A DNA stretch of 42,540 nt. It comes from a virus. How positions within the stretch are numbered: position 1 is the stretch's first letter; the number at the start of each line of letters is the position of its first letter. The position numbers were made by a program, and so were the translations under genes. The stretch covers positions 1 to 42,540 of IMG/VR virus record IMGVR_UViG_3300050190_000038. One strand, given 5' to 3'. A model generated the notes under the pieces. The model had not been told where the DNA came from. It did not search any database and saw nothing but the letters and a program-made list of their open reading frames with translations. Positions 7,166-42,341 of the stretch are shown in pieces.

Positions 7166-10100
7166 CTATTTTGCTTTCAAAATAGCTAGTTTTAAAGCAT
7201 CAACTTCATTCTTCAACTCTTGAATTGCCTTACTTAACATAGGGATTATTACGGTTTCATTTGGCTGATACAAAGAAGGTTTTTTATTACCTTTAGCGTC
7301 CTCTCCTTGTTCCACCTCAAAGGCCATGCTTTCATCAATTTCCAATAATTCCTGTGAAACATAACCTATCCTGCAATGTGCACCACCATGCTCTTTTTTC
7401 CAATCAAACTGCCTGTGTTTTATCAACATGATTTTAGCTAATGCCGTTTCGGTCATATCTTGTATATTGTTTTTTAAGCTTTTATCTGATGCCCAAGTAG
7501 TTGCCCCGTAAACAGTGCCACCGCCAGCTAAGGTTATTTGCAGGTAACTAGGAGGAGTACCACCTGTCATATGTTCAAGTTCTATAATTTGTGCAGAAAC
7601 TTTTGAATATGGACAAATACCACCATTAGACCAGACATTATGCGCAGCAACAATTTCTCCTTCAGTATTTATGTTACCACTTAGTGTGACTCCACCTGGG
7701 GCAGTAATTGCAATACCTCCGACTACTCCATATCCTAATACTATTTGAGCACCGTAACCAATAAGCATTAAACCAGATCCAGAAGCAAAGCATCCGTTTG
7801 GATTTGAATTAGTAAAAGCTATTGAACCCATCCAAACCCCGCTAAAGGCTCCTTGAGGTACTATACTGGCATAATTATTGCCACTGTCTGCCGTTATTGT
7901 GAGGCTCAAAGCTGAATTTTTATATATACTCAATCCTGCCGTAGTCATGGTTGCATATACTGTTGAGTCACTTTGAGATATTATCTTATAAACACTTAAG
8001 TTCGTAACATTTATTCTATCCGCAGTGATTGATCCTGCGGCTATCTGAGTAGCAGTTATTGTACCAGCAGTTATTTGTGTAGCAGTAATAGTACCAGCAA
8101 CTATTTTAGCTGCTGTAATTGTATTTGCAGCTATCTCGTTTGCTGTTATTGTACCTGCTAAAATTTGAGCCGCAGTAATAGTGTTAGCAACTATTTCGTT
8201 TGCTGTGATGACATGTGATGCAATTTCTCTAGCAGTAATAGCGTCAACAACAATTTTATCCCCTGTGATCGTGTTTGCAGATATTAGTGTGTTAGTTATA
8301 GTCCCAGGCGTAATATCACCACCTAGAATAGTCCCATCTAGGATATTTGCTGTGGTAATTGCCCCATTGGATATCTGGGAACCATTTATCGTGCCAACAG
8401 TAATATTTGCAGCGTTTAAGTGATTTACCGTAATTACCGCTGCATCGATTGTTCCAGCAGATATTTTATTTGCAGATAACGTTACGATTTTTCCATCTGT
8501 TATGCTGCCATCAGCGATCTGGGTAGTCCCTATTGCTGCAAGTCCTACAACTGCGTTATCAATTATGCCATTAGTGATATGAGCGAAATTAGCACTCAAA
8601 TTATTAATGCTAGCTACATCAATGGTTGCATTATCAATAACCCCGTTTGTGATATGCGCTGTGGTAGTTTCAAGCGTGGTAATTCTGGCTGTGCTGGCGC
8701 TTAATTGCGTTATTGTTGCACTGTCAGCTTCGAGAGTAGTAATCCTCGCTGTAGAGGTCGTTAAGTCTGTTACGTCCGCCTTATCTGCCGTGAGGGTTTC
8801 TATGCTTGCATTAACAGCCGTTAGCTCTGTTATAATCGCCTTAGTCACGATTAAAGTGCCAATGGTCGCAATAGCAGCACTTAAATTATCCACATTAATC
8901 GCAGCGATATGAGCATTGGTAAGATCACCTGATACCGAGGATGCAACAACCGAGCCTGTCGTATCCGTTGCCGTTGCCACTGTATTCGCAGCGTCGGACA
9001 CTCGCAGGATAATGTCCTCAAGCCTTGCGATACGGTTTGCAATCTGGATAGTTGAGCGTTCTGGCTCTTCGGGGTAGCGGTCAATCTTTACGATACGTTG
9101 CAATTCTCGAACATTCTTACTCTCACTCAAAAGGGTAATAAAATCCCCAAGGGCAAAGTCAAGCAGTCCCCAGGTATCAGACACATTAGCCAGATCGACA
9201 ATGCTTGCAGAATATGCCCGGGTGGGCTTGGATAGGTAGGCAAGGCGTTCTGCCGCGTCATCAAGTAGGGTCTGTGCTGCTACATCTATTTTTATCTTTG
9301 CTTTGTCCACAAATAAGGTAAGGAGTGCAATTCGGGCTAAATAATAAAAGTCAAAATTCTGCTTGCATTCATTGCCACCAATAGTAGTTTCTGTGGTTGT
9401 ATCTGCAATTAAAGGAGTAATATAGGCATTCAAAACATTATAAGTATCATCATAGGCGGTTTTTTCAGTTGTTATCTCAAAGGTAGTTGCTTGAGTATCG
9501 TTTAAAGCAAATTCGGTGGTAATGGCTGTCATTTCTGTGCTTATGCTACTTTTTTCTTCTCCTGTTAATTTATTATCAGCAACGATACCCTCAATCCAAA
9601 AATCTTTTGCAGTAGCATCTACTTGGCAAGTAGTTAGTGCTGTGTTTAATGCTACCAGATCAACATTAGACGTATAGCGGTTATCAATCCAGTACCCAGT
9701 TATTACCTTATTACTGTACTGATAATTGGATACATAATTGATACCATCATTGATAGTTGTGATATCCAAGTTGTTTAAGCCAATTGGGACTAAACGTGTG
9801 ATATAGTCATTTGTATTGCTTTGAGATTGCAATGTTTGCAAATTAAGTTGTTCTGCAAAATATGCACCTCTGTCTGCACCTTGTTTTTGGTGGATATTTA
9901 CGGTCTTGTGAACAGAGTCATACTTGATCTCGCAGGCATAAGACTTTGTAATCTCTGCCATCACATCATATGCCGAGCATTGAGCTTTTCGCACCGTGCG
10001 CAACTTGGTAACATCGCAGAACCCGACCGTCCAGCCAGTGCCCGCAAGAGCGAGGTTTGCACTATCCTCAGGCAATTGTTCGACAGTTTCGAAATTTGTT

Positions 10101-18385: not shown

Positions 18386-19519
18386 TCAAACGATTGTAAG
18401 CTGGCCGTAAACTACCGCGCTAACGTCGAGAGTTGCAATAGTATCACGCACGATGGCACGGATATCAGTTCTATTCTGGGTAAAGGCGGATCCGCCGATA
18501 TTCGTGGCCAGTAATGACATTTGCATGCGGTCAAAGAGGATACAGAACTCATGCAGGTCACCCATGAATAACGGTGCCTTGGTGGCTACGGTAGGCAGTT
18601 GTTTATTCGTAATAACGACAACTTGCTTCCCGATTAGGGTTTTCCCGCTGGCATTGGTAACATCAGTCTTTAAGACGTAGTTGCCATCGCCATCTTTCAG
18701 GGTATCCAGGAGATTGAAGCCGTCCTGGTTGGTAACTACGACTGCTCCGGCAGCGATCATCGGGTCGAGGGTTACATTAATGGCCTTTTTGATATCGTCA
18801 AACCCAGCGATTGCAACTGGCGCAAGAGTCTGGAGCTTGGTGACGATCATTAAGTTCCGGGTTGCAATGGACTTTCTGAGCATCCACTGTTCTAGATAGG
18901 CCATTAAGTTTTGGTCCGTGTCGTTCATGAGATTGTTCGGCACCGGCAGGATACCGCCTTTGTCAGTAATGGTATACGGCACGTTGGTAAATTGTGGCGT
19001 TGAGGCTGCTGGCACGTCGTTACCTTCGGTAAATACTGCGAAGGGGACAATGTCGGCATACAATTCAACGACTCGAGAACCAGTAAGGGTACTAACGGGT
19101 TCAACGTTGACGTAGTTTTCCAGGATTGGTAGGTCACGCTTCAAAATGTTAATGCGGGTCTGGATGTCCTGGGGGATGATAAATCCACCATCGGCACCGC
19201 TTAAAGATGATAAGGCTGCCCTAGATTCTAGCAGGCTGGCTTCGGCCTCAGTAACCTTGCGGCCACGGAATGCCTTTAAGAAGGCGGCCTTGTACTCTTC
19301 TTCTTCGCTCATCTTGCTCTCGGCATTCGGGACATTAACCGGAATATCGATCCGGTCCTGTGCTTCAACTTCAACCTGTAGATCGGCTTTCTTCTGGAGA
19401 TCCCGAACCTCAACCATAAGTGCTTCGGCGTCAGAGACTTTGTCTTCCACTAGCAACGCCTTCACCTGATCTTTTTTAGCATTTAATGCTTCAAAGATAA
19501 TACGTAATTCCTTAGTCAT
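18386..19519 (-). CDS. Major capsid protein, HK97 fold
   Basis: 377 residues. Residues 1-75 are a coiled coil (delta domain acting as scaffold: LRIIFEALNAKKDQVKALL, EVRDLQKKADLQ). The rest is the HK97 fold, with ALSSLSGADGGFIIPQDIQTRI at the P-domain start and DLHEFCILFDRMQMSLL near the end. The delta domain is expected to be removed by the ClpP-like protease encoded upstream. Strong RBS (AAGGAGGA). Confidence 0.95.
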   Translation of the reverse strand: MTKELRIIFEALNAKKDQVKALLVEDKVSDAEALMVEVRDLQKKADLQVEVEAQDRIDIPVNVPNAESKMSEEEEYKAAFLKAFRGRKVTEAEASLLESRAALSSLSGADGGFIIPQDIQTRINILKRDLPILENYVNVEPVSTLTGSRVVELYADIVPFAVFTEGNDVPAASTPQFTNVPYTITDKGGILPVPNNLMNDTDQNLMAYLEQWMLRKSIATRNLMIVTKLQTLAPVAIAGFDDIKKAINVTLDPMIAAGAVVVTNQDGFNLLDTLKDGDGNYVLKTDVTNASGKTLIGKQVVVITNKQLPTVATKAPLFMGDLHEFCILFDRMQMSLLATNIGGSAFTQNRTDIRAIVRDTIATLDVSAVVYGQLTIV

Positions 19520-19538: not shown

Positions 19539-20279
19539 TTAGAGCTGTAATTCCAGCTCGATTTTCTGTTTTGTCAATATGTCTGGGCCTGGGCCTGGTT
19601 CCGGTTCGGGTTCAGGTTTGGGTTCTTCCTTAGCCTCAACCTTGATAAACTTGGGAGCATTCTTATACCGTGCCACAAATTCAATATCCTGAACGCTTGC
19701 AGCAATGGCTTTTTCTTCGCCTAGGACGTCGCAAAAACCGAGGTCAAAGCATTCCTGAGCCGTTAGCCATGTCTCGGCGTCTAACAGTGCCACGAGATCC
19801 TCCTGCTTCATGTCCGTGGCTTTCGATAAGTAGGCTTCCTGAAGGGTCAACCCAATCTTATCCAGGTCATCAGCCATCTTGCGAAAGTCCGTGGCATTTC
19901 CCATGGCAATCGACCAAGCATTGTGGATCATAAGCAAGGAGTTCTTTGGCATAGTCACTACATCCCCTGCCATAGCCACAACTGATGCAATCGAGGCCGC
20001 TAGTCCGTCAATGAATACATTTACCTGTGCCTTATGCCTTTTTAGCATTGCATAGATGGCATTACCGGCAAATACATCGCCACCAGGGCTGTTGATGTAT
20101 ACGTTTAGGGTGCTTATATCTCCCAACGCAGCCAATTCTTCCTGGAATCCCTTAGGTGTGATCTCTGTCCCATCACTGAGCCAGTCAGTATTTGAGTTTG
20201 CGATCTCTCCGTAGATATATAACTCGCCTTCATTGTCGGCCAGAGCCTTAAACTCCCAGAACTTTTTAGCCGTTTGCAC
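19539..20279 (-). CDS. ClpP-like prohead protease
   Basis: 246 residues, S14 peptidase. NSPGGDVFAGNAIYAML holds the oxyanion glycines; the nucleophile is Ser96 in GLAASIAS and the base is His119 in MIHNAW. It matures the HK97-type capsid. After residue ~200 comes an acidic Pro/Glu tail (EPKPEPEPEPGPGP). GTG start, 9 bases after AGGAGG, overlapping the portal gene by 14 bases. Confidence 0.93.
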   Translation of the reverse strand: MQTAKKFWEFKALADNEGELYIYGEIANSNTDWLSDGTEITPKGFQEELAALGDISTLNVYINSPGGDVFAGNAIYAMLKRHKAQVNVFIDGLAASIASVVAMAGDVVTMPKNSLLMIHNAWSIAMGNATDFRKMADDLDKIGLTLQEAYLSKATDMKQEDLVALLDAETWLTAQECFDLGFCDVLGEEKAIAASVQDIEFVARYKNAPKFIKVEAKEEPKPEPEPEPGPGPDILTKQKIELELQL

Positions 20280-21531
20280 TTTTACTCACCTCCTTGCCTG
20301 GGGTTTTTGCCTTCTCTAACTGGTATTGATCGGCCAAGGATATATTAATGTGGTTCAAATCAACCCTGTGTTGATCTCCGTCGGTTCCTATGTCCTCCAT
20401 GTCCTCAAGTTCCCTTACCTCATTGACTGAGTACGCCCCAATCCCCGTCATTTCTCTGTAGTAAGTGGCCCGACTTGCCGAGTCACCACGCAAGGCGCTG
20501 TCAAGGTTAAACTTGATATAGTGATCTTTGTCCTTCGGGGTGGAGAACAACTTAAAGGTGAACTCTTCTTCCCATGACACCAATGCTGGCTGTATACAGT
20601 CAGATATAAAATCCATGGACTGGCTTTCAATGTTGCTAAAGGTTGCCCTATCAAGTTCGGCCAGCTTATGAAGAGGGACATTGAAAATCTTCGCTATCTC
20701 TGCGACGTTGAATTTCCCGGTTGCGATAAACTCGGCATCGGCCAAGGGCATTGAAATGCTTTGATACTCCATCCCCGCATCGATGACCGCAACGCCCCCA
20801 GCGTTATTGACACCGCCATTCGCTTTCTGCCATTCGGCTCTAAGTGCGTCCTTCGCAGGGCTTCCGATTGCGGCGGGAGTTGTGATAATCCCCTTCGTGG
20901 CTGTTCCGTTTTTATAAAACCCACCAATGAATTTATTACTGGCCATCATTACGCCAAGGGTTTCACGCGCCACCTGTATTGGCGATTTTCCTCTCACGCC
21001 ATCCAAGGATAGATACGGCAGTTTGATAATTTCCGACTCCTGCAAGCGCATTGTCCTGTTGTTCAGCGTGGTTATATAAGTGTACAGGCCTGTCTCAATG
21101 TCCCTGTATGGCTGTGTAACATCTGGATGCAACAACCACAATGCGATGATGTTTCCTCGTCTGTCCGGTTCCATGTAGACGTAGGCGTTTCCCCAAAGGT
21201 TTTGATGAACTGAGATCGTGTGTTTGAACGTGAATGGGGTTGTGAATTGGTTAGGTCGGATTTCTAATAATTTAGATACCTGATGGGCCTTGTCTCGCTC
21301 TCTGCCAGTTGGTGTGGTCTTGAATACTTGCATGGGCAGTTTTGCAATCGCGTTTGATTTGATATTTACGCAAGCGTAAACCGTAGCAATCTCTAGTGAA
21401 CTTACGGCAGTGACCGCTTCTCCGCTTGATGTCGTTGTACCGCCGCCGAGCAGGTCAATTAGCCATTGAGCAGGATCGGTCAGCCCGCTGGTGTCCATGT
21501 TTTTAACGTTTAAAAGCCTATTAAATAACAT
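20266..21531 (-). CDS. Portal protein, HK97 family
   Basis: 421 residues. VSSLEIATVYACVNIKSNAIAKLP at the start and the long helical core with NVAEIAKIFNVPLHKL are the phage portal (HK97 gp3) family. The dodecamer is the DNA entry channel. It overlaps the protease gene. AAGGAG lies 12 bases before ATG 21531. Confidence 0.95.
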   Translation of the reverse strand: MLFNRLLNVKNMDTSGLTDPAQWLIDLLGGGTTTSSGEAVTAVSSLEIATVYACVNIKSNAIAKLPMQVFKTTPTGRERDKAHQVSKLLEIRPNQFTTPFTFKHTISVHQNLWGNAYVYMEPDRRGNIIALWLLHPDVTQPYRDIETGLYTYITTLNNRTMRLQESEIIKLPYLSLDGVRGKSPIQVARETLGVMMASNKFIGGFYKNGTATKGIITTPAAIGSPAKDALRAEWQKANGGVNNAGGVAVIDAGMEYQSISMPLADAEFIATGKFNVAEIAKIFNVPLHKLAELDRATFSNIESQSMDFISDCIQPALVSWEEEFTFKLFSTPKDKDHYIKFNLDSALRGDSASRATYYREMTGIGAYSVNEVRELEDMEDIGTDGDQHRVDLNHINISLADQYQLEKAKTPGKEVSKSANG

Positions 21532-21743: not shown

Positions 21744-23441
21744 TTAGAAACTAAATCCTTCGCTGAGTATGTGGGCTTCCAGGTCAATCCCTATCCCTAA
21801 CACCATCGCCCTGACATGTGCATTAATAACTGATGCAATGGGGTCTATCCTCTGGGTGCTCTTGGACTTATCTAGCATAAATGTCTCGTTTGGCGCCATC
21901 CTTGTTACTGCATTACCTATCGCCCAGGTTAGAACTGGGTTTCTATTGTGTGCTACGTTTCCCCTGTATACCTCTTCCCGGAAGCTTTTAGTAGGCTCTC
22001 CGAGCGTTTGCATCCCCTGCCGGATATCGACGCAGACATAGCCTTGGTTTGTCATTTCTGTGCCAAACATGTTGGCATTCCACTTGTCATAACAGAGTTC
22101 TTTAGGGATGCATCCGTATTTTTCGTTTGTGGAATTGATGTAGTCGATGACGTATGCGTAGTCCACAACTTCCCCAGGCGTCAGCGTGATCCAGCCTTGC
22201 TGTGCCCACAAATCATAAGGAACCTTATCCATTGCCGTTTTTTCATTGAGTTTTTCCTCGGGCATAAACGAATGACAGAGCACATAGTATTTACCGTCAA
22301 TTTTAAACTCATGCGCCACGCTGGTAAGGTCTAAAGTGGCCGATAGATCGGTGCCGATAATGCAATCCCTACCCCTAAACATCTCCATGTCAAAGCCTTG
22401 GCCGCATTTAGCCCACTTTGATAGGTCCATATACCCAAACTCCCTCATCTGAACCCACACATTAACCGTTTTTGTAAGGAAGTCACGCATCTTTTCGGGC
22501 GCTTCAAGTGCTAGGTTCAGCCTTTTCCGGATGGAATTAACACCCTCTGGGTAAGAGCAAACGATTGGATTTGCTTTTTCCCAGTTTGACTCATCTTTTA
22601 CATCATTACCTTCGTCAAGTTCATTGATCATTACGAAGTAGTTATTGTTTTCATACGGGTTATCAGGGTCAAGGATGTGTGAAACAAGCTTATATTCAAC
22701 GGAATAGCATGGGTTGGCAAGGTTGAACCCTGCGGTCGTTATGATCATTAGCAGCGGTTGGGGTCTTGCTACCATTCCGCTGTCCATGATGTCATACATC
22801 TCGCTAGTTTCATGAGCATGGTATTCATCAATGATCGCACACTGCGGATTAAATCCGTCGCCCTTTTTACCGTCCTCCTTGGACAATGCTTCCATGACAG
22901 ACCCTGTTTTTATGTGTTTGATTTGGCTGTATGCAACTTTAAACTTGCCTTTCAACTCGGGACATCCACTTAACATCGCTTCTGTTTCTTCCCAGACGAT
23001 CCTGGCCTGTTTCCGCTTGGTTGCGGTACAGTAAACCTCAGATGCGCCTTCGCCAAAAGCCATAAGTTCATAACTTCCAACACAGGACAGGCTTTGACTT
23101 TTTGCGTTCTTGCGCCCAACTTGCCAGTATGCTTTGTTGAACCTTCGGTATCCTGTGTCCTTATGGATCCATCCGTAGATATTGCCAAATACAAACTTTT
23201 GAATTATGTGGGGTTCAATGTGCTGACCTTTGAGCACACCTTTACGGTGCTTAAATAATCGCATCCAGTCAAGGAATCTTTCTGCTTTTTCATCTGCAAA
23301 TATAAAAGGGAACCCTTCGGTCCCTTGTCTCGCTATGTCATCTAAGAATCTTTGACAGGCCCATTTATGTTTCTGACATGCAATGATCTGACCGGCTATG
23401 ACGTCGTTGGAGTAATCAATTAGCTCTTCCATCGTTCCCAT
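21744..23441 (-). CDS. terL: Terminase large subunit
   Basis: 565 residues, Terminase_1 family. ATPase: Walker A-like VGRKNAKS near residue 108 and Walker B CAIIDEYH near 205. Nuclease: first Asp in IGTDLSATLDL near 350 with later acidic residues. It packages DNA into the prohead and cuts it. Start overlaps the stop of TerS by one base. Confidence 0.96.
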   Translation of the reverse strand: MGTMEELIDYSNDVIAGQIIACQKHKWACQRFLDDIARQGTEGFPFIFADEKAERFLDWMRLFKHRKGVLKGQHIEPHIIQKFVFGNIYGWIHKDTGYRRFNKAYWQVGRKNAKSQSLSCVGSYELMAFGEGASEVYCTATKRKQARIVWEETEAMLSGCPELKGKFKVAYSQIKHIKTGSVMEALSKEDGKKGDGFNPQCAIIDEYHAHETSEMYDIMDSGMVARPQPLLMIITTAGFNLANPCYSVEYKLVSHILDPDNPYENNNYFVMINELDEGNDVKDESNWEKANPIVCSYPEGVNSIRKRLNLALEAPEKMRDFLTKTVNVWVQMREFGYMDLSKWAKCGQGFDMEMFRGRDCIIGTDLSATLDLTSVAHEFKIDGKYYVLCHSFMPEEKLNEKTAMDKVPYDLWAQQGWITLTPGEVVDYAYVIDYINSTNEKYGCIPKELCYDKWNANMFGTEMTNQGYVCVDIRQGMQTLGEPTKSFREEVYRGNVAHNRNPVLTWAIGNAVTRMAPNETFMLDKSKSTQRIDPIASVINAHVRAMVLGIGIDLEAHILSEGFSF

Positions 23442-23980
23442 TATACTTCGCCAAACCCTCTCGCTGCCAGGGGATCGACCTTCACCGGCTCCTTCTTGGG
23501 GATGTTTTTAATCTTGGCCAGGGGATTGAGGAATGTGCGATCCTCTATCTTGAGTAAACTGTCCATCTTCTTGTTAATCGCTGTCTCAAGTTGTAACAGT
23601 GGATTAAGTTTCAATATCTTCTCTATTTGGTAGGATAATTCTTCTGGGAGCACATCGCTATATTTTGACCAGTCTGCTTCCAATGCTTCAAGATGCTTTC
23701 TGTCATCCAAGAGCCGCAGGTATTCACTATGTGTCATACAGTATCTAGCCAATACGCCAACATCACCAGATGAAACATAGTCTGCGTCCTTGTAGATAAC
23801 AAGAACTTCCTTCCAGCGCTTGTATGCATTAACGTCATCTTTTACATAGTCAGGGCACCTAAAGTATTTGGTTCCTGTTTTAATCTGAGTAGCGTTTCTC
23901 TGCTCGATCACTGCCTTGGATAAGTGGCTGCGACCATTTGCTAGTATTAAGTTAACCGGCTGCGCATTTCTGCCACCCAT
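23441..23980 (-). CDS. terS: Terminase small subunit, P27 family
   Basis: 179 residues from ATG 23980, chosen because AAGGAG is 8 bases upstream and the MGGRNAQPVNLILANGRSH start fits the family. LSYQIEKILKLNPLLQLETAINKK is the usual oligomerisation helix region. It recognises the packaging site. Confidence 0.9.
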   Translation of the reverse strand: MGGRNAQPVNLILANGRSHLSKAVIEQRNATQIKTGTKYFRCPDYVKDDVNAYKRWKEVLVIYKDADYVSSGDVGVLARYCMTHSEYLRLLDDRKHLEALEADWSKYSDVLPEELSYQIEKILKLNPLLQLETAINKKMDSLLKIEDRTFLNPLAKIKNIPKKEPVKVDPLAARGFGEV

Positions 23981-24087
23981 AGCCACCACTCCTTTTCCAA
24001 AAGTTTTAAAAATAGGAATTTTCACACGCTGAGCCAACCAGCGACTTTCTAGTGTCATTTTTTCAGGTTTAATGACCTGGGGGTATA

Positions 24088-26237: not shown

Positions 26238-26280
26238 CCTAGTTTTAGATGATTATACAACCATCTAAATTAAATAACTT
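26238..26280. promoter_or_regulatory. AT-rich perfect hairpin/palindrome
   Basis: An 8-bp perfect inverted repeat (tttagatg / catctaaa) with a 10-nt centre lies just after the sigma-like gene. It has no T tract and could be an operator or mRNA-stability element. Confidence 0.35.
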
Positions 26281-26588
26281 GAAATGTTTTTTGTCAGGCG
26301 GTGGATTTTACTAGCAACCGCCTGTTGGCTTACCTGATATTTTTCTGCAATTTCTTCTTGAGAATAACCCTCTAGCCAGAGCCTTAGATAGGACCCCTGT
26401 TTTTGGGTGGCCTCATGTTCTACCGCGCCCATCAGATCAAGAAATATAGCGTGTGCAACTCCATCTCCTCTACCTGCGCAGTTTAGTAGGTCATTGAGGT
26501 GCATCAACAACGATTTGATCACACCCGGATTATCATAGTTGGCTTTATTCAACAAGGCATAATTAATCACGGTCTCCCCCTGTTTCAT
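26265..26588 (-). CDS. Sigma region 4-like late regulator
   Basis: 107 residues. The C-terminal half, YLRLWLEGYSQEEIAEKYQVSQQAVASKIHRLTKNI, is a sigma-70 region 4 type helix-turn-helix. Proteins of this size just upstream of terminase genes (ArpU-like) are transcription activators of late genes in Firmicute phages. That role fits its place at the early/late junction. Confidence 0.8.
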   Translation of the reverse strand: MKQGETVINYALLNKANYDNPGVIKSLLMHLNDLLNCAGRGDGVAHAIFLDLMGAVEHEATQKQGSYLRLWLEGYSQEEIAEKYQVSQQAVASKIHRLTKNISSYLI

Positions 26589-27973: not shown

Positions 27974-27992
27974 TTTGACTCCTCTCTTTGGT

Positions 27993-28652
27993 TTAATATT
28001 TAGGGTACAACGGATCTACGATCTGTAGCTCTCTGACTTTTGCCCACTCCAACGCCATAATGTCTTGCGTTTTTCGGGTTTTACTGGCATTGGCCTCTCC
28101 TCCTAATTTATTTATAACAAATGGACCTCTCACCCCTGCGATGAATCTTTCAGCAGCTTCCAGGGCCAGCCTTACCCTATCTTCTGGTGGTTGTCCCTCC
28201 GTACTGTATAGCGACCCAAGGGCTATCTGGGCCCCGCATCCTACGGCATGATATTTAGCGACCTGTTCCGCTACCTGGTAATCATCCTCTATCTCAAATA
28301 GGCGGCCATTATAGCCAACAAGAAAGCTTCCACCACTTTCCTCCTCGTCTTTTTTTGTTGCGAAGCCACCATCTTTTAAGCATTGCCTGACTGCATCAAC
28401 GAAATATGTCACCATATATTTATAGATGCCCATCCTCTCGCCAGTCCCGGTAAGACAGGGATGTTCCGGCGGATTGAATTTATAGCGCAGTAGTTGCCCC
28501 ATCCTAAATGAGGATGTAAAGCCCATCAGGAAGGGTCCATTCCTGAATACTTTCTGATCGGCTCTCACGCTGAGCTGATAACCCCCAACTCCTGCGCTAT
28601 CACCACCGATATAAACATTGCCGCCGTCCAGCAGTCCAACAATACAGGTCAA
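27993..28652 (-). CDS. Proteasome-like (HslV-type) N-terminal threonine hydrolase
   Basis: 219 residues with TTG start and GGGAGG 8 bases upstream. The protein starts Met-Thr-Cys-Ile-Val; after Met removal Thr becomes residue 1. Asp17 (in GGDS) and Lys33 (in DQKVF) then sit at exactly the places of the Thr1-Asp17-Lys33 triad of proteasome beta subunits and HslV. GFTSSFRMGQLL matches the region around Gly47. So it is probably an active Ntn peptidase. No unfoldase partner is seen nearby, so it may use a host AAA protein or act on a peptide or protein freely. The last residues (ALEWAKVRE..VDPLYPKY) recur in the next gene upstream. Confidence 0.82.
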   Translation of the reverse strand: MTCIVGLLDGGNVYIGGDSAGVGGYQLSVRADQKVFRNGPFLMGFTSSFRMGQLLRYKFNPPEHPCLTGTGERMGIYKYMVTYFVDAVRQCLKDGGFATKKDEEESGGSFLVGYNGRLFEIEDDYQVAEQVAKYHAVGCGAQIALGSLYSTEGQPPEDRVRLALEAAERFIAGVRGPFVINKLGGEANASKTRKTQDIMALEWAKVRELQIVDPLYPKY

Positions 28653-28686
28653 CTATTTTTCCTCCCTCACTCTTGCCCACTCTGCT

Positions 28687-28896
28687 TTAATATTTCGGAT
28701 ATAATGGATCGACGTTCTGTGTCTCTCTCACCCTTGCCCACTCTAATGCCCTTTCAACGGCTAATTCCAGGGTGTCCCCTAGTCCCCAAGCATATGGCAT
28801 ATAGTCCTCCAGATATAGCTTACATTCGAACGCGCCGGTCGGTGTTAACTCTAAACGCCAACGCTCAAAGTTTTTAAGGATATTTATATCAATCAA
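28687..28896 (-). CDS. Small early protein sharing its tail with the proteasome-like protein
   Basis: 69 residues, TTG start behind a nine-G run. WRLELTPTGAFECKLYLED forms a possible small sheet. The last 19 residues (LEWARVRETQNVDPLYPKY) are nearly the same as the end of the proteasome-like protein encoded next; part of the same DNA (EWARVRE) is found again right after its stop. Function unknown. Confidence 0.7.
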   Translation of the reverse strand: MIDINILKNFERWRLELTPTGAFECKLYLEDYMPYAWGLGDTLELAVERALEWARVRETQNVDPLYPKY

Positions 28897-29200: not shown

Positions 29201-29386
29201 TCAGTCTGCCTCCTCTATCCCCAGCGCCCTAGCCCAACAATCAGGGCAATCTCGCTGGTCAGTTTCACAGTCGGTGGCATCTGACAAGCCAAACGAATAT
29301 GGACATCCTGCCTTGACGATAAGTCTGCCTATTTTCTCTTTATCGACCTGCTCAATTAAGGCATCAACCATTTCTCCGTAATCCAT
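29201..29386 (-). CDS. Four-Cys small protein family, paralog P4
   Basis: 61 residues: MDYGEMVDALIEQV, CPYSFGLSD, DC then CPDCWARAL. Four Cys in C..C..CxxC layout suggest one zinc site. It is one of four related genes in this prophage (29201, 29990, 32353 and 34227). I know similar phage proteins but no function. Confidence 0.78.
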   Translation of the reverse strand: MDYGEMVDALIEQVDKEKIGRLIVKAGCPYSFGLSDATDCETDQRDCPDCWARALGIEEAD

Positions 29387-29778: not shown

Positions 29779-29993
29779 GATATTTCTCCCCCTGCCAACG
29801 GGCACCAGATAGGGCTAGAACGAAAATCACGGCCCTTTATAATCCTGTTATGGCCTCTATTACCTGTCCACTCATACCTTTCGGTTACTTCTGGATGTCT
29901 GCAACTGTGGCAATATCTCGGGGGATCAATATTTTCACTGGTTAATCGTCGATATATATGGAAATTGCACTCTTTGCATTTTGGTTTGGTCAT
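29775..29993 (-). CDS. Zinc-finger-like early protein
   Basis: 72 residues. CKEC (6-9), CHSC (28-31) and a single Cys near the end in IWCPLAGG, the 'WCPL' ending common to small phage proteins. Starts by ATGA overlap with paralog P3. Confidence 0.72.
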   Translation of the reverse strand: MTKPKCKECNFHIYRRLTSENIDPPRYCHSCRHPEVTERYEWTGNRGHNRIIKGRDFRSSPIWCPLAGGEIS

Positions 29994-30205
29994 GATATCT
30001 CCTCCTCTAGCTCTAGTGCCTTAGCCCAGCAATCGGGGCAAACATTGTTCCGGTAATCTCCGCAATTCTCAGTTATGGGCAATTCAAATAAACTTGGGCA
30101 CATTTGCCCAACAAGAATCCCTCCAATTCTCCTACCCATAATTCTACTTAATTCCTCTTCGCCGACCTTTTCAATTAAGGCATCAAACATCTTTTTATGA
30201 TCCAT
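29990..30205 (-). CDS. Four-Cys small protein family, paralog P3
   Basis: 71 residues from ATG 30205, behind AGGAGGAGGG. MDHKKMFDALIEKVGEEEL, CPSLFELP, then C and CPDCWAKALELEE. It has an extra ~9 residues between the helix and first Cys relative to the other paralogs. Confidence 0.78.
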   Translation of the reverse strand: MDHKKMFDALIEKVGEEELSRIMGRRIGGILVGQMCPSLFELPITENCGDYRNNVCPDCWAKALELEEEIS

Positions 30206-30228
30206 TTTCAGCCCTCCTCCTGCCAACT

Positions 30229-31551
30229 TTACTGACCGACTTGCATTCTCGGTTCGTCGTTCTCTGGTCGGCATAATATCCGCTTCCAGGGAATTTTTAG
30301 GTCTCCGATATATGCCCCGTCCCGCGCCTTTGCTATATTTATCACGACCTCAGCCTCATCCCAGGGAATTGTCGTGTCATAATAATTATCCCGGGAGAGA
30401 AACATAATCTCATCTGCAATTTCTTCGGCTTGACCGGAATCCCGGAGATCCTCCATCCCTGGGCGCTTATCCTCTTTTTTTTCGACTGATCTTGATAACT
30501 GCCAGAGCATCAAGACCGGTATGTTTAACTGTATCGCCAGATCCTTCGTCCGGTTGATAATCGTACTCATGCGCTCATACCCAGAAGCGTTCGTCCGATC
30601 ATCCAACTGCATCCTGCCAGCGTGATCTATGACAAGAAACTGTGCTGCGCCTCGGACTTGCTCCACTCTGACTAACCGGGACAGTTTATCTGGCGTGTTA
30701 GCGCCAGTATTCACTCTGAATTTAGGCATATACTCCATAATCGTTTCCCGGGCATTGCGAATTTTCCCCTGTTCAAACCCGCTAAATAGTCCATTCCTGA
30801 ACTTTCGGAGTGATACGCCGCTCTGATATGCTAACAGTCTTTTCCAGAGTTGGTTTTTGGGCATTTCGTAACTCATATACAATGTCTCCCAGCCTAGTTC
30901 CACGGCATTAAGCGCTATCTCCACGGCCAGAGCAGATTTTCCGACTGATGTTCTTGCGGCCAACAAACACACTTCCCCGGGCCTAATTCCACCACAAAGT
31001 GCCCGATCTATCTCGGTTATCCCTGTGCAAACGCCTCCTTGTTCATTGTTACCTGTCAGCATTTGCTCAAGGTCAATCCCCTCGCAGACACTACTCGTAT
31101 CGGAGGTGGCATTCTCATCAAAACTCAGGGCGTTTAGCAAATAGGTCTCCAATTTGTCATACTCTGCACCTTGACTGAATTCTTGTGCAACGGTTATAAG
31201 TGTTGCACAGAGTTTCCTACCTCGCCTGTGCTCATGCAGGATGTCGATATAGTGTGGCATCCGATTGGGTATGCACCCCCGACTTTGCAATTCCACGAGT
31301 TCTGATATTTTTACATCCGGTAATTGAATATTTACGAGTACTTCGTCTGGCGTTATACCTTCGGCCATCATGCTTAAAATGGCCTGAAATATCTGTTTGT
31401 AAGTCGGGACTGAGAAGTCACTTGGCGTAATATCATCAAGATAAGCCAATGTCCTATCTTGATAAAGATCGCTTAACAGAGCACCTATAACCACTGCTTC
31501 AGCCTCTGGACTGGCTGGGGGAACTAGCCTTTTGTCTTCCGTGTTGCTCAC
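30229..31551 (-). CDS. dnaB: DnaB-like replicative helicase
   Basis: 440 residues. N-terminal DnaB domain (PPASPEAEAVVIGALL...), then RecA-type motor with Walker A ARTSVGKSA (Lys205), Walker B LVIDHAGRMQ, and later DLRDSGQAEEIADEIMFLSRD. It unwinds DNA at the phage fork. GTG is the only possible start (TAA two codons before); AAAGGAG lies almost on top of it, so initiation may depend on coupling with the overlapping upstream gene. Confidence 0.95.
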   Translation of the reverse strand: MSNTEDKRLVPPASPEAEAVVIGALLSDLYQDRTLAYLDDITPSDFSVPTYKQIFQAILSMMAEGITPDEVLVNIQLPDVKISELVELQSRGCIPNRMPHYIDILHEHRRGRKLCATLITVAQEFSQGAEYDKLETYLLNALSFDENATSDTSSVCEGIDLEQMLTGNNEQGGVCTGITEIDRALCGGIRPGEVCLLAARTSVGKSALAVEIALNAVELGWETLYMSYEMPKNQLWKRLLAYQSGVSLRKFRNGLFSGFEQGKIRNARETIMEYMPKFRVNTGANTPDKLSRLVRVEQVRGAAQFLVIDHAGRMQLDDRTNASGYERMSTIINRTKDLAIQLNIPVLMLWQLSRSVEKKEDKRPGMEDLRDSGQAEEIADEIMFLSRDNYYDTTIPWDEAEVVINIAKARDGAYIGDLKIPWKRILCRPENDEPRMQVGQ

Positions 31552-41225: not shown

Positions 41226-42341
41226 TTGGCTGCAATCAGTAAAAGGAAGGATGGCCGGTGGCAAGCTATTATTGATTTACCACCGGATTTGAAAACAGGA
41301 GAGAGGAAACGCAAGTGGATATATGCTGATAAGCGCCCAGAAGTCAGGCGGATGGCTACCAAACTAGAGGAGCAGGTAGCCTCCGGCAACTATATTGATT
41401 CATCGAAACTAACCATTGAAGGGTACCTGCTTACCTGGGTCAAGGATTATTGTGCCGATCTATCGCCTACCACTGTAGATGCATATAAGACATACATCAA
41501 AGGCCATATCATACCCGCTATCGGTAAGATTAAACTGCAGAACATAAAACCTTTGGATATCCAGCGATTCTATAATGGTGAATCCGAAAGAGGTTATAAA
41601 GGAAATACGATCAGGCAAGAGCATATAATTCTGAATAGAGCGTTAAAAGACGCGGTAAAAAACAGCATGATCCAATACAACCCGGTGGATCGGGTTGATA
41701 AACCCAAGCCCAATGATTTTGAGCCGGATGTCTATGATGAGGATAATTTTATTAACCTGATGAATGCGGTTGTTGGTACAGATGACGAGGTTCCAATATT
41801 GCTGGCCGGTATCTTGGGTTTAAGACGTGGGGAGATATTCGGTTTGAGGTGGTCTGACATCGATTTCAAGGAGCAGGTTATCTCAGTTAGGCAAACTCTC
41901 GTCTATGCAGGCGGCGAGCTGATGTTCAAACCCCCGAAAAGCAAAAAGGGTCTGCGGTCAATCACTATCCCTGCTAACCTGGCACCTGTGCTTAAAGATC
42001 ACAGGAAAAGACAAATGGCAATAATGCAGCCAACCGAAGGATCTCATGGCCTCGTTTGCTGCCGCCAGGATGGGGGGCAGATGAATCCTCGCTCATACAG
42101 CACGCATTTCAGGGAATTGCTTGAAAGACATTCTCTCCCCCACATACGATTTCATGACCTGCGCCATTTCAACGCAACCATGATGATGAAATATAAGATC
42201 GATGTCAAGGTGGCAGCGAAACGATTAGGCCATGCTGATCCAGGTATGACCCAAAGGATTTATCAGCACGTGCTCAATGATATGGATGTAGAGGCAGCAG
42301 AAAAGCTGAATCATATCTTGGAACATTGGAGTCAAAAGTAA
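41226..42341 (+). CDS. int: Tyrosine integrase
   Basis: 371 residues, TTG start with GAGGGGG 7 bases upstream. N-terminal arm-binding domain (ISKRKDGRWQAII), SAM-like core-binding domain (65-155), catalytic domain with Arg200 (GLRRGE), Lys238, His310-x-x-Arg313 (HDLRH), His336 and Tyr346. It catalyses attP x tRNA-Leu integration. It ends next to attR as expected. No separate excisionase is recognised beside it. Confidence 0.96.
   Translation: MAAISKRKDGRWQAIIDLPPDLKTGERKRKWIYADKRPEVRRMATKLEEQVASGNYIDSSKLTIEGYLLTWVKDYCADLSPTTVDAYKTYIKGHIIPAIGKIKLQNIKPLDIQRFYNGESERGYKGNTIRQEHIILNRALKDAVKNSMIQYNPVDRVDKPKPNDFEPDVYDEDNFINLMNAVVGTDDEVPILLAGILGLRRGEIFGLRWSDIDFKEQVISVRQTLVYAGGELMFKPPKSKKGLRSITIPANLAPVLKDHRKRQMAIMQPTEGSHGLVCCRQDGGQMNPRSYSTHFRELLERHSLPHIRFHDLRHFNATMMMKYKIDVKVAAKRLGHADPGMTQRIYQHVLNDMDVEAAEKLNHILEHWSQK

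Follow-up and report, generated by a model that had tools for sequence, protein, structure and literature searches.

Among the 22 new proteasome-like groups described by Fuchs, Alva and Lupas in 2021 are PPH, proteins of about 140 aa from phages and their hosts that are without helix H2, and AAH, known from alpha-proteobacteria, Actinobacteria and phages, for which there is evidence that phages carried it into Firmicutes and Bacteroidetes (PMC8665760). AAH entered that survey without a function and without informative gene context (PMC8665760). The nearest solved relative is BPH: mass spectrometry showed that it loses its Met, its Thr1 reacts with epoxomicin, its S1 pocket is hydrophobic and no unfoldase is known for it; its authors discuss its lack of activity in vitro (PMC5777263). 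Our literature search for a characterised phage proteasome homolog returned nothing beyond the 2021 survey.

Here, we examine a proteasome-like gene in a window of 42,540 bases, a single IMG/VR record that may be a fragment. Its kind is already known, since AAH and PPH are catalogued and PHROGs holds a matching cluster (phrog_1040), and the gene itself is an ordinary member. The part worth following is its gene context across phages, which goes beyond the 2021 survey.

The gene and its catalytic residues

The Ntn gene occupies positions 27993..28652 on the minus strand and encodes 219 aa. It begins with TTG (28650-28652, minus) and has a good ribosome-binding site, a Shine-Dalgarno-like GGGAGG read from the sequence 8 nt 5' of the start (28661..28666, minus). 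Strand and length agree with the initial annotation, and the Thr1/Asp17/Lys33 spacing after Met is exactly the one it claimed, far beyond chance. On the minus strand, the codons lie at 28647..28649 for Thr1 (the putative nucleophile, bared by Met removal), 28599..28601 for Asp17 and 28551..28553 for Lys33. Among 180 aligned relatives from other phages and from bacteria, 178 have Thr at position 1 and the other 2 have Ser, with Asp17 and Lys33 each present in 180/180. The relatives comprised 82 IMG/VR loci, 80 loci from one genome per bacterial species, and named phages; 14 diverse phage homologs proved too divergent when aligned for the collection scans, for which the six closest rows were used.

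An ATG, GTG or TTG stands directly 5' of residue 1 in 180 of 183 rows (two of the others are cut and one has AAT), so that these proteins do without a propeptide, and loss of Met would leave Thr1 at the N terminus. That Met1 would be removed follows from the known preference of methionine aminopeptidase. The deposited annotation of Moorella phage MTATph1 (OR602862; L006:8001-8558) starts the gene at 8043, 14 codons past the TTG that stands before the catalytic Thr, and thereby loses Thr1.

The oxyanion-hole glycine is also in place: Gly43 (28521..28523, minus), the equivalent of proteasome Gly47 and HslV Gly45, aligns with the HslV 'AGF' and is invariant in the 110-row alignment (column G44). 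Ser47 had been considered as a lost oxyanion glycine and was dropped, as the HslV alignment puts that glycine at the invariant position 43. The gene is under purifying selection, with pairwise dN/dS of 0.03-0.32 in close pairs, in phages and bacteria alike.

Fold and family assignment

Searched singly, the window protein matches phrog_1040, 'peptidase HslV family', at E 8.8e-24, a broad cluster that also matches cellular HslV and proteasomes. Pfam and NCBIfam searches with the same protein gave no match, and the NCBIfam HslV models thus do not fit it. A tblastn relative was found in 178 phage records. When a profile of 110 relatives was compared with solved chains, the matches were to BPH (1e-4), HslV (8e-4) and the prokaryotic proteasome beta subunit (1e-3), with Thr1 falling on the mature Thr1 and Gly43 on the oxyanion glycine of HslV. 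AlphaFold, run from the same 110-relative alignment, predicts an alpha-beta-beta-alpha fold (mean pLDDT 92, pTM 0.82) with helices H1 at 49-58, H2 at 76-94, H3 at 141-150 and H4 at 156-170. Against the PDB, Foldseek places BPH first (5ovs, E 5.5e-11, TM 0.67/0.78), followed by HslV, proteasome beta and Anbu. The structure prediction proposed earlier as a check therefore returned an Ntn fold, and relatedness to proteasomes and HslV with an intact triad is borne out by both profile and fold matches.

We draw a distinction between AAH and PPH, which are both phage-borne and belong to the same group I. The window protein matches AAH and not PPH, an assignment made from features and distribution. 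As in AAH, it has a compact core of about 180 aa with H1-H4, Thr1/Asp17/Lys33, and neither insertions nor a propeptide, whereas PPH has only about 140 aa and is without the H2 seen here at 76-94. Its bacterial relatives include Azospirillum, Skermanella, Mesorhizobium, Actinoplanes and Frankia. This core, H2 and these relatives argue for AAH rather than PPH, and the distribution over Azospirillum and its kin, Actinoplanes, Frankia and phages, including those of Firmicutes, is likewise that of AAH.

Departures at the active site and possible partners

Fold, triad and oxyanion glycine are common to HslV and the window protein, but the equivalent of proteasome Asp166 is not kept. Where BPH and HslV have a conserved Asp near 166, 92/110 relatives have Ser and the window protein has Ile, while the Ser129 position is Cys in 101/110 and in the window protein. 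BPH (PDB 5ovs, 5ovu), nearest in both fold and sequence profile and likewise with a Met-Thr start, is only 19-23% identical to the window protein; it keeps the Asp where AAH has Ser and has Ser139 where AAH has mostly Cys. An intact triad by itself is no proof of peptidase activity.

Around the S1 pocket, Gly20, Asp31, Phe35, Thr45 and Arg49 are invariant or near-invariant by alignment (Asp31 near-invariant, Arg49 invariant). In contrast to the hydrophobic S1 of BPH (PMC5777263), AAH has conserved charged residues near S1, which, judged from sequence, makes a different and narrower specificity likely.

Might the phage subunit need a partner? The initial annotation noted no unfoldase gene nearby, and AAA and AAA_2 (Pfam) are indeed absent from the record, which may be a fragment; no HslU partner was found in it either. 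One explanation is that the subunit docks early on a host AAA+ unfoldase of the HslU/ClpX type, steering degradation towards a regulator of the host or the phage. Relatedness to HslV, the absence of an unfoldase from the record and the fact that many bacteria carry HslU/ClpX speak for such docking. However, the nearest solved relative, BPH, has no known unfoldase (PMC5777263), the 2021 survey saw no co-occurring AAA+ for these families (PMC8665760), and AAH stands alone in Azospirillaceae and Actinoplanes. Capture of host HslU or ClpX, as the annotation had suggested, is conceivable yet unsupported here, and we regard the docking explanation as quite unlikely. Nor does the record resemble a 20S proteasome, as there is no paired alpha subunit: it holds a single phrog_1040 match and no second proteasome-like gene.

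A different chemistry was also weighed, in which the protein is a connectase-like ligase or transpeptidase whose Thr1 forms an acyl-enzyme and hands it on to a second amine, for instance one on a head protein. The Thr1 chemistry would be the same, and connectase shows that the fold is capable of it (PMC8665760); charged conserved residues lie near S1, and the gene sits among head genes in relatives described below. Connectase, however, has a two-helix insertion between S3 and S4 and lacks H1/H2, whereas the AlphaFold model of the window protein has no such insertion and keeps both helices. This tells against a connectase-type ligase, which seems to us highly improbable.

A C-terminal tail of probable local origin

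The window protein differs from other AAH in a C-terminal extension of 37 residues (183-219; 27996..28106, minus), which has no counterpart in any relative fetched and for which AlphaFold predicts, at lower confidence, a helix at 187-210. Residues 199-219 (21 residues) are 81% identical to the end of an upstream 69-aa ORF (28687..28896, minus), which ends ALEWARVRETQNVDPLYPKY; the nearly shared ending of about 20 residues reads ALEWA[KR]VRE..VDPLYPKY. At the DNA level this is a 71-nt direct repeat, D2, with copy 1 at the end of the Ntn gene (27986..28056, minus) 79% identical to copy 2 at the end of the 69-aa ORF (28680..28750, minus). The simplest account is a recent duplication that lengthened the Ntn gene.

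Several further observations concern this stretch. A third EWARVRE fragment lies at 28665-28682, in the gap before the Ntn start, and overlaps the ribosome-binding site. Annotated DenV-like pyrimidine dimer glycosylases from Vi01-like phages match the 69-aa ORF weakly (31%, E 0.1), which probably has no meaning. Two small neighbouring ORFs (29201-29386 and 29990-30274) have two repeat blocks in common (D1, 72%; D4, 83%) and look like duplicates. Elsewhere, homologs from Vibrio and Pseudoalteromonas phages (L010, L011, L014, L020) carry unrelated-looking C-terminal extensions of 110-210 residues.

Genomic neighbourhood in the window

The window phage is temperate. The record has an integrase (41226-42341, plus), the sole exception to the minus strand among the named module genes, along with antirepressor-like genes and a DnaB-type helicase. 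On the minus strand are the major capsid protein (18386..19519) and portal protein (20266..21531), both identified with our own HMMs, the terminase large subunit (21744..23441), nearest to those of Geobacillus temperate phages at 66%, and the terminase small subunit (23441..24058), 3.9 kb downstream of the Ntn gene. A sigma-region-4-like regulator (26265..26588, minus) comes between the Ntn gene and these packaging genes. The Ntn gene thus falls outside the head module proper, upstream of the regulator, with the replication module on one side and the packaging module on the other. Among the matches listed, none places an AAH in the Geobacillus temperate phages, the closest TerL relatives, which marks the Ntn gene as accessory.

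That the protein is made early, as first annotated, is unsupported: the gene sits between replication and packaging modules and many relatives are inside the head module. Promoter and terminator scans near the Ntn gene stayed at shuffle level, and no statement on timing therefore rests on them.

Association with the head and packaging module in small phages

Portal genes were scanned for in whole contigs of at least 25 kb, using one locus per Ntn group (75% identity; 26 groups). Loci had been picked by similarity to the window protein and not by context, and where a group held more than one locus we took the closest, which introduces a small bias. The Ntn gene was within 1 kb of the portal gene in 8/26 groups (1.2 expected under random placement), within 2.5 kb in 11/26 (3.1 expected) and within 4 kb in 16/26 (4.8 expected), counts that were reached in 0 of 5000 simulations. 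In small phage contigs, AAH genes thus show clustering with the head/packaging module.

The placement itself varies. The Ntn gene lies between TerL and portal in L024-L027, L031, L040, L063 and L098; between portal and a head protease or capsid gene in L001, L029, L035, L048, L079 and L094; and just upstream of TerL in L037, L055, L061, L073, L091, L130, L141 and L145. Mapped on the tree, head-module placement changes about 20-22 times, with at least 6 changes forced by well-supported branches, so that this placement was reached several times.

Could the head module simply be a permissive insertion site for moron-like cargo that serves the lysogen or host and not virion production? The gene is accessory in its lineage, its positions within the head module vary, and it looks domesticated in bacteria, under purifying selection, all of which would suit cargo. 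Against this, the gene is codirectional in 24/26 groups and sometimes, as in L079 and L031, overlaps or abuts the portal gene, an arrangement that points to expression with the late genes; it is common in large phages too. We consider cargo unlikely.

Large phages and bacterial chromosomes

Neither large phages nor the copies on bacterial chromosomes show the link to the head module. In large phages the Ntn gene is found near genes for RNR, PhoH, dCMP deaminase, NAD metabolism, DHFR, thymidylate synthase or DNA ligase. In T5-like phages and Geobacillus virus E3 it adjoins DHFR/thymidylate synthase (L009:4513-6579, L019:2288-4579, L007:5761-8582), and an NAD-dependent DNA ligase gene follows it directly or one gene later in a clade mostly of large viral contigs (L045, L049, L059, L060, L064, L072, L077, L083, L084, L089, L093 and L102).

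Such neighbours would suit a small-molecule amidase tied to nucleotide metabolism, acting for example on a gamma-glutamyl or folate-related compound: DHFR and thymidylate synthase adjoin the gene in the phages just named, and RNR, PhoH, dCMP deaminase, NAD metabolism or DNA ligase are nearby in others. Yet these blocks are so dense with metabolism genes that adjacency says little, an amidase would not explain why small phages have the gene in the head module, and the nearest folds are BPH and HslV, not a small-molecule Ntn hydrolase. An amidase is very unlikely in our judgement.

Aeromonas phage 4L372D (NC_048771; L023:5737-7190) carries tandem proteasome-like genes, one AAH and one PPH-looking, possibly a two-subunit assembly in one phage.

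Purifying selection also acts on the bacterial copies (L104-L183; Azospirillaceae, Actinoplanes and others), each of them a conserved single gene with little synteny around it. In Azospirillum, neighbours of the chromosomal copies are shared only between closely related species, and among the Actinoplanes copies the Ntn gene is itself the sole shared gene. The bacterial copies look as if they had been domesticated.

Proposed role

What, then, might phage AAH do? The reading that we favour, at somewhat better than an even chance, is a BPH-type ring of threonine peptidase subunits, independent of ATP and narrow in specificity, that is recurrently co-expressed with head assembly. It builds on the homology, fold, triad, purifying selection and gene context described above. 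Host methionine aminopeptidase would take off Met1 and expose Thr1, which, activated by Lys33 and Asp17 and with Gly43 as the putative oxyanion-hole glycine, would attack an amide bond in a peptide or in an unfolded segment. Most likely, the subunits would stack into a double ring like the tetradecameric one of BPH, and this ring may work on a narrow set of substrates with no AAA+ unfoldase. In small, mostly temperate phages, repeated placement with head and packaging genes suggests that the action of AAH is probably late, at a step close to virion assembly or directed at its by-products. Against this reading stand the loss of Asp166, the mostly Cys occupancy of the Ser129 position and the location of the window gene 3.9 kb upstream of the small terminase gene.

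We put forward more tentatively, as a possibility well short of even, that phage AAH, derived from the proteasome, takes part in virion morphogenesis. On this view, a ring-forming peptidase (or ligase) would have entered the late head module on many occasions, there to trim a head protein or clear scaffold fragments. Through its clustering with portal, terminase and capsid genes, phage AAH gains a concrete context that can be tested, and this would matter if proteasome relatives share in virion assembly.
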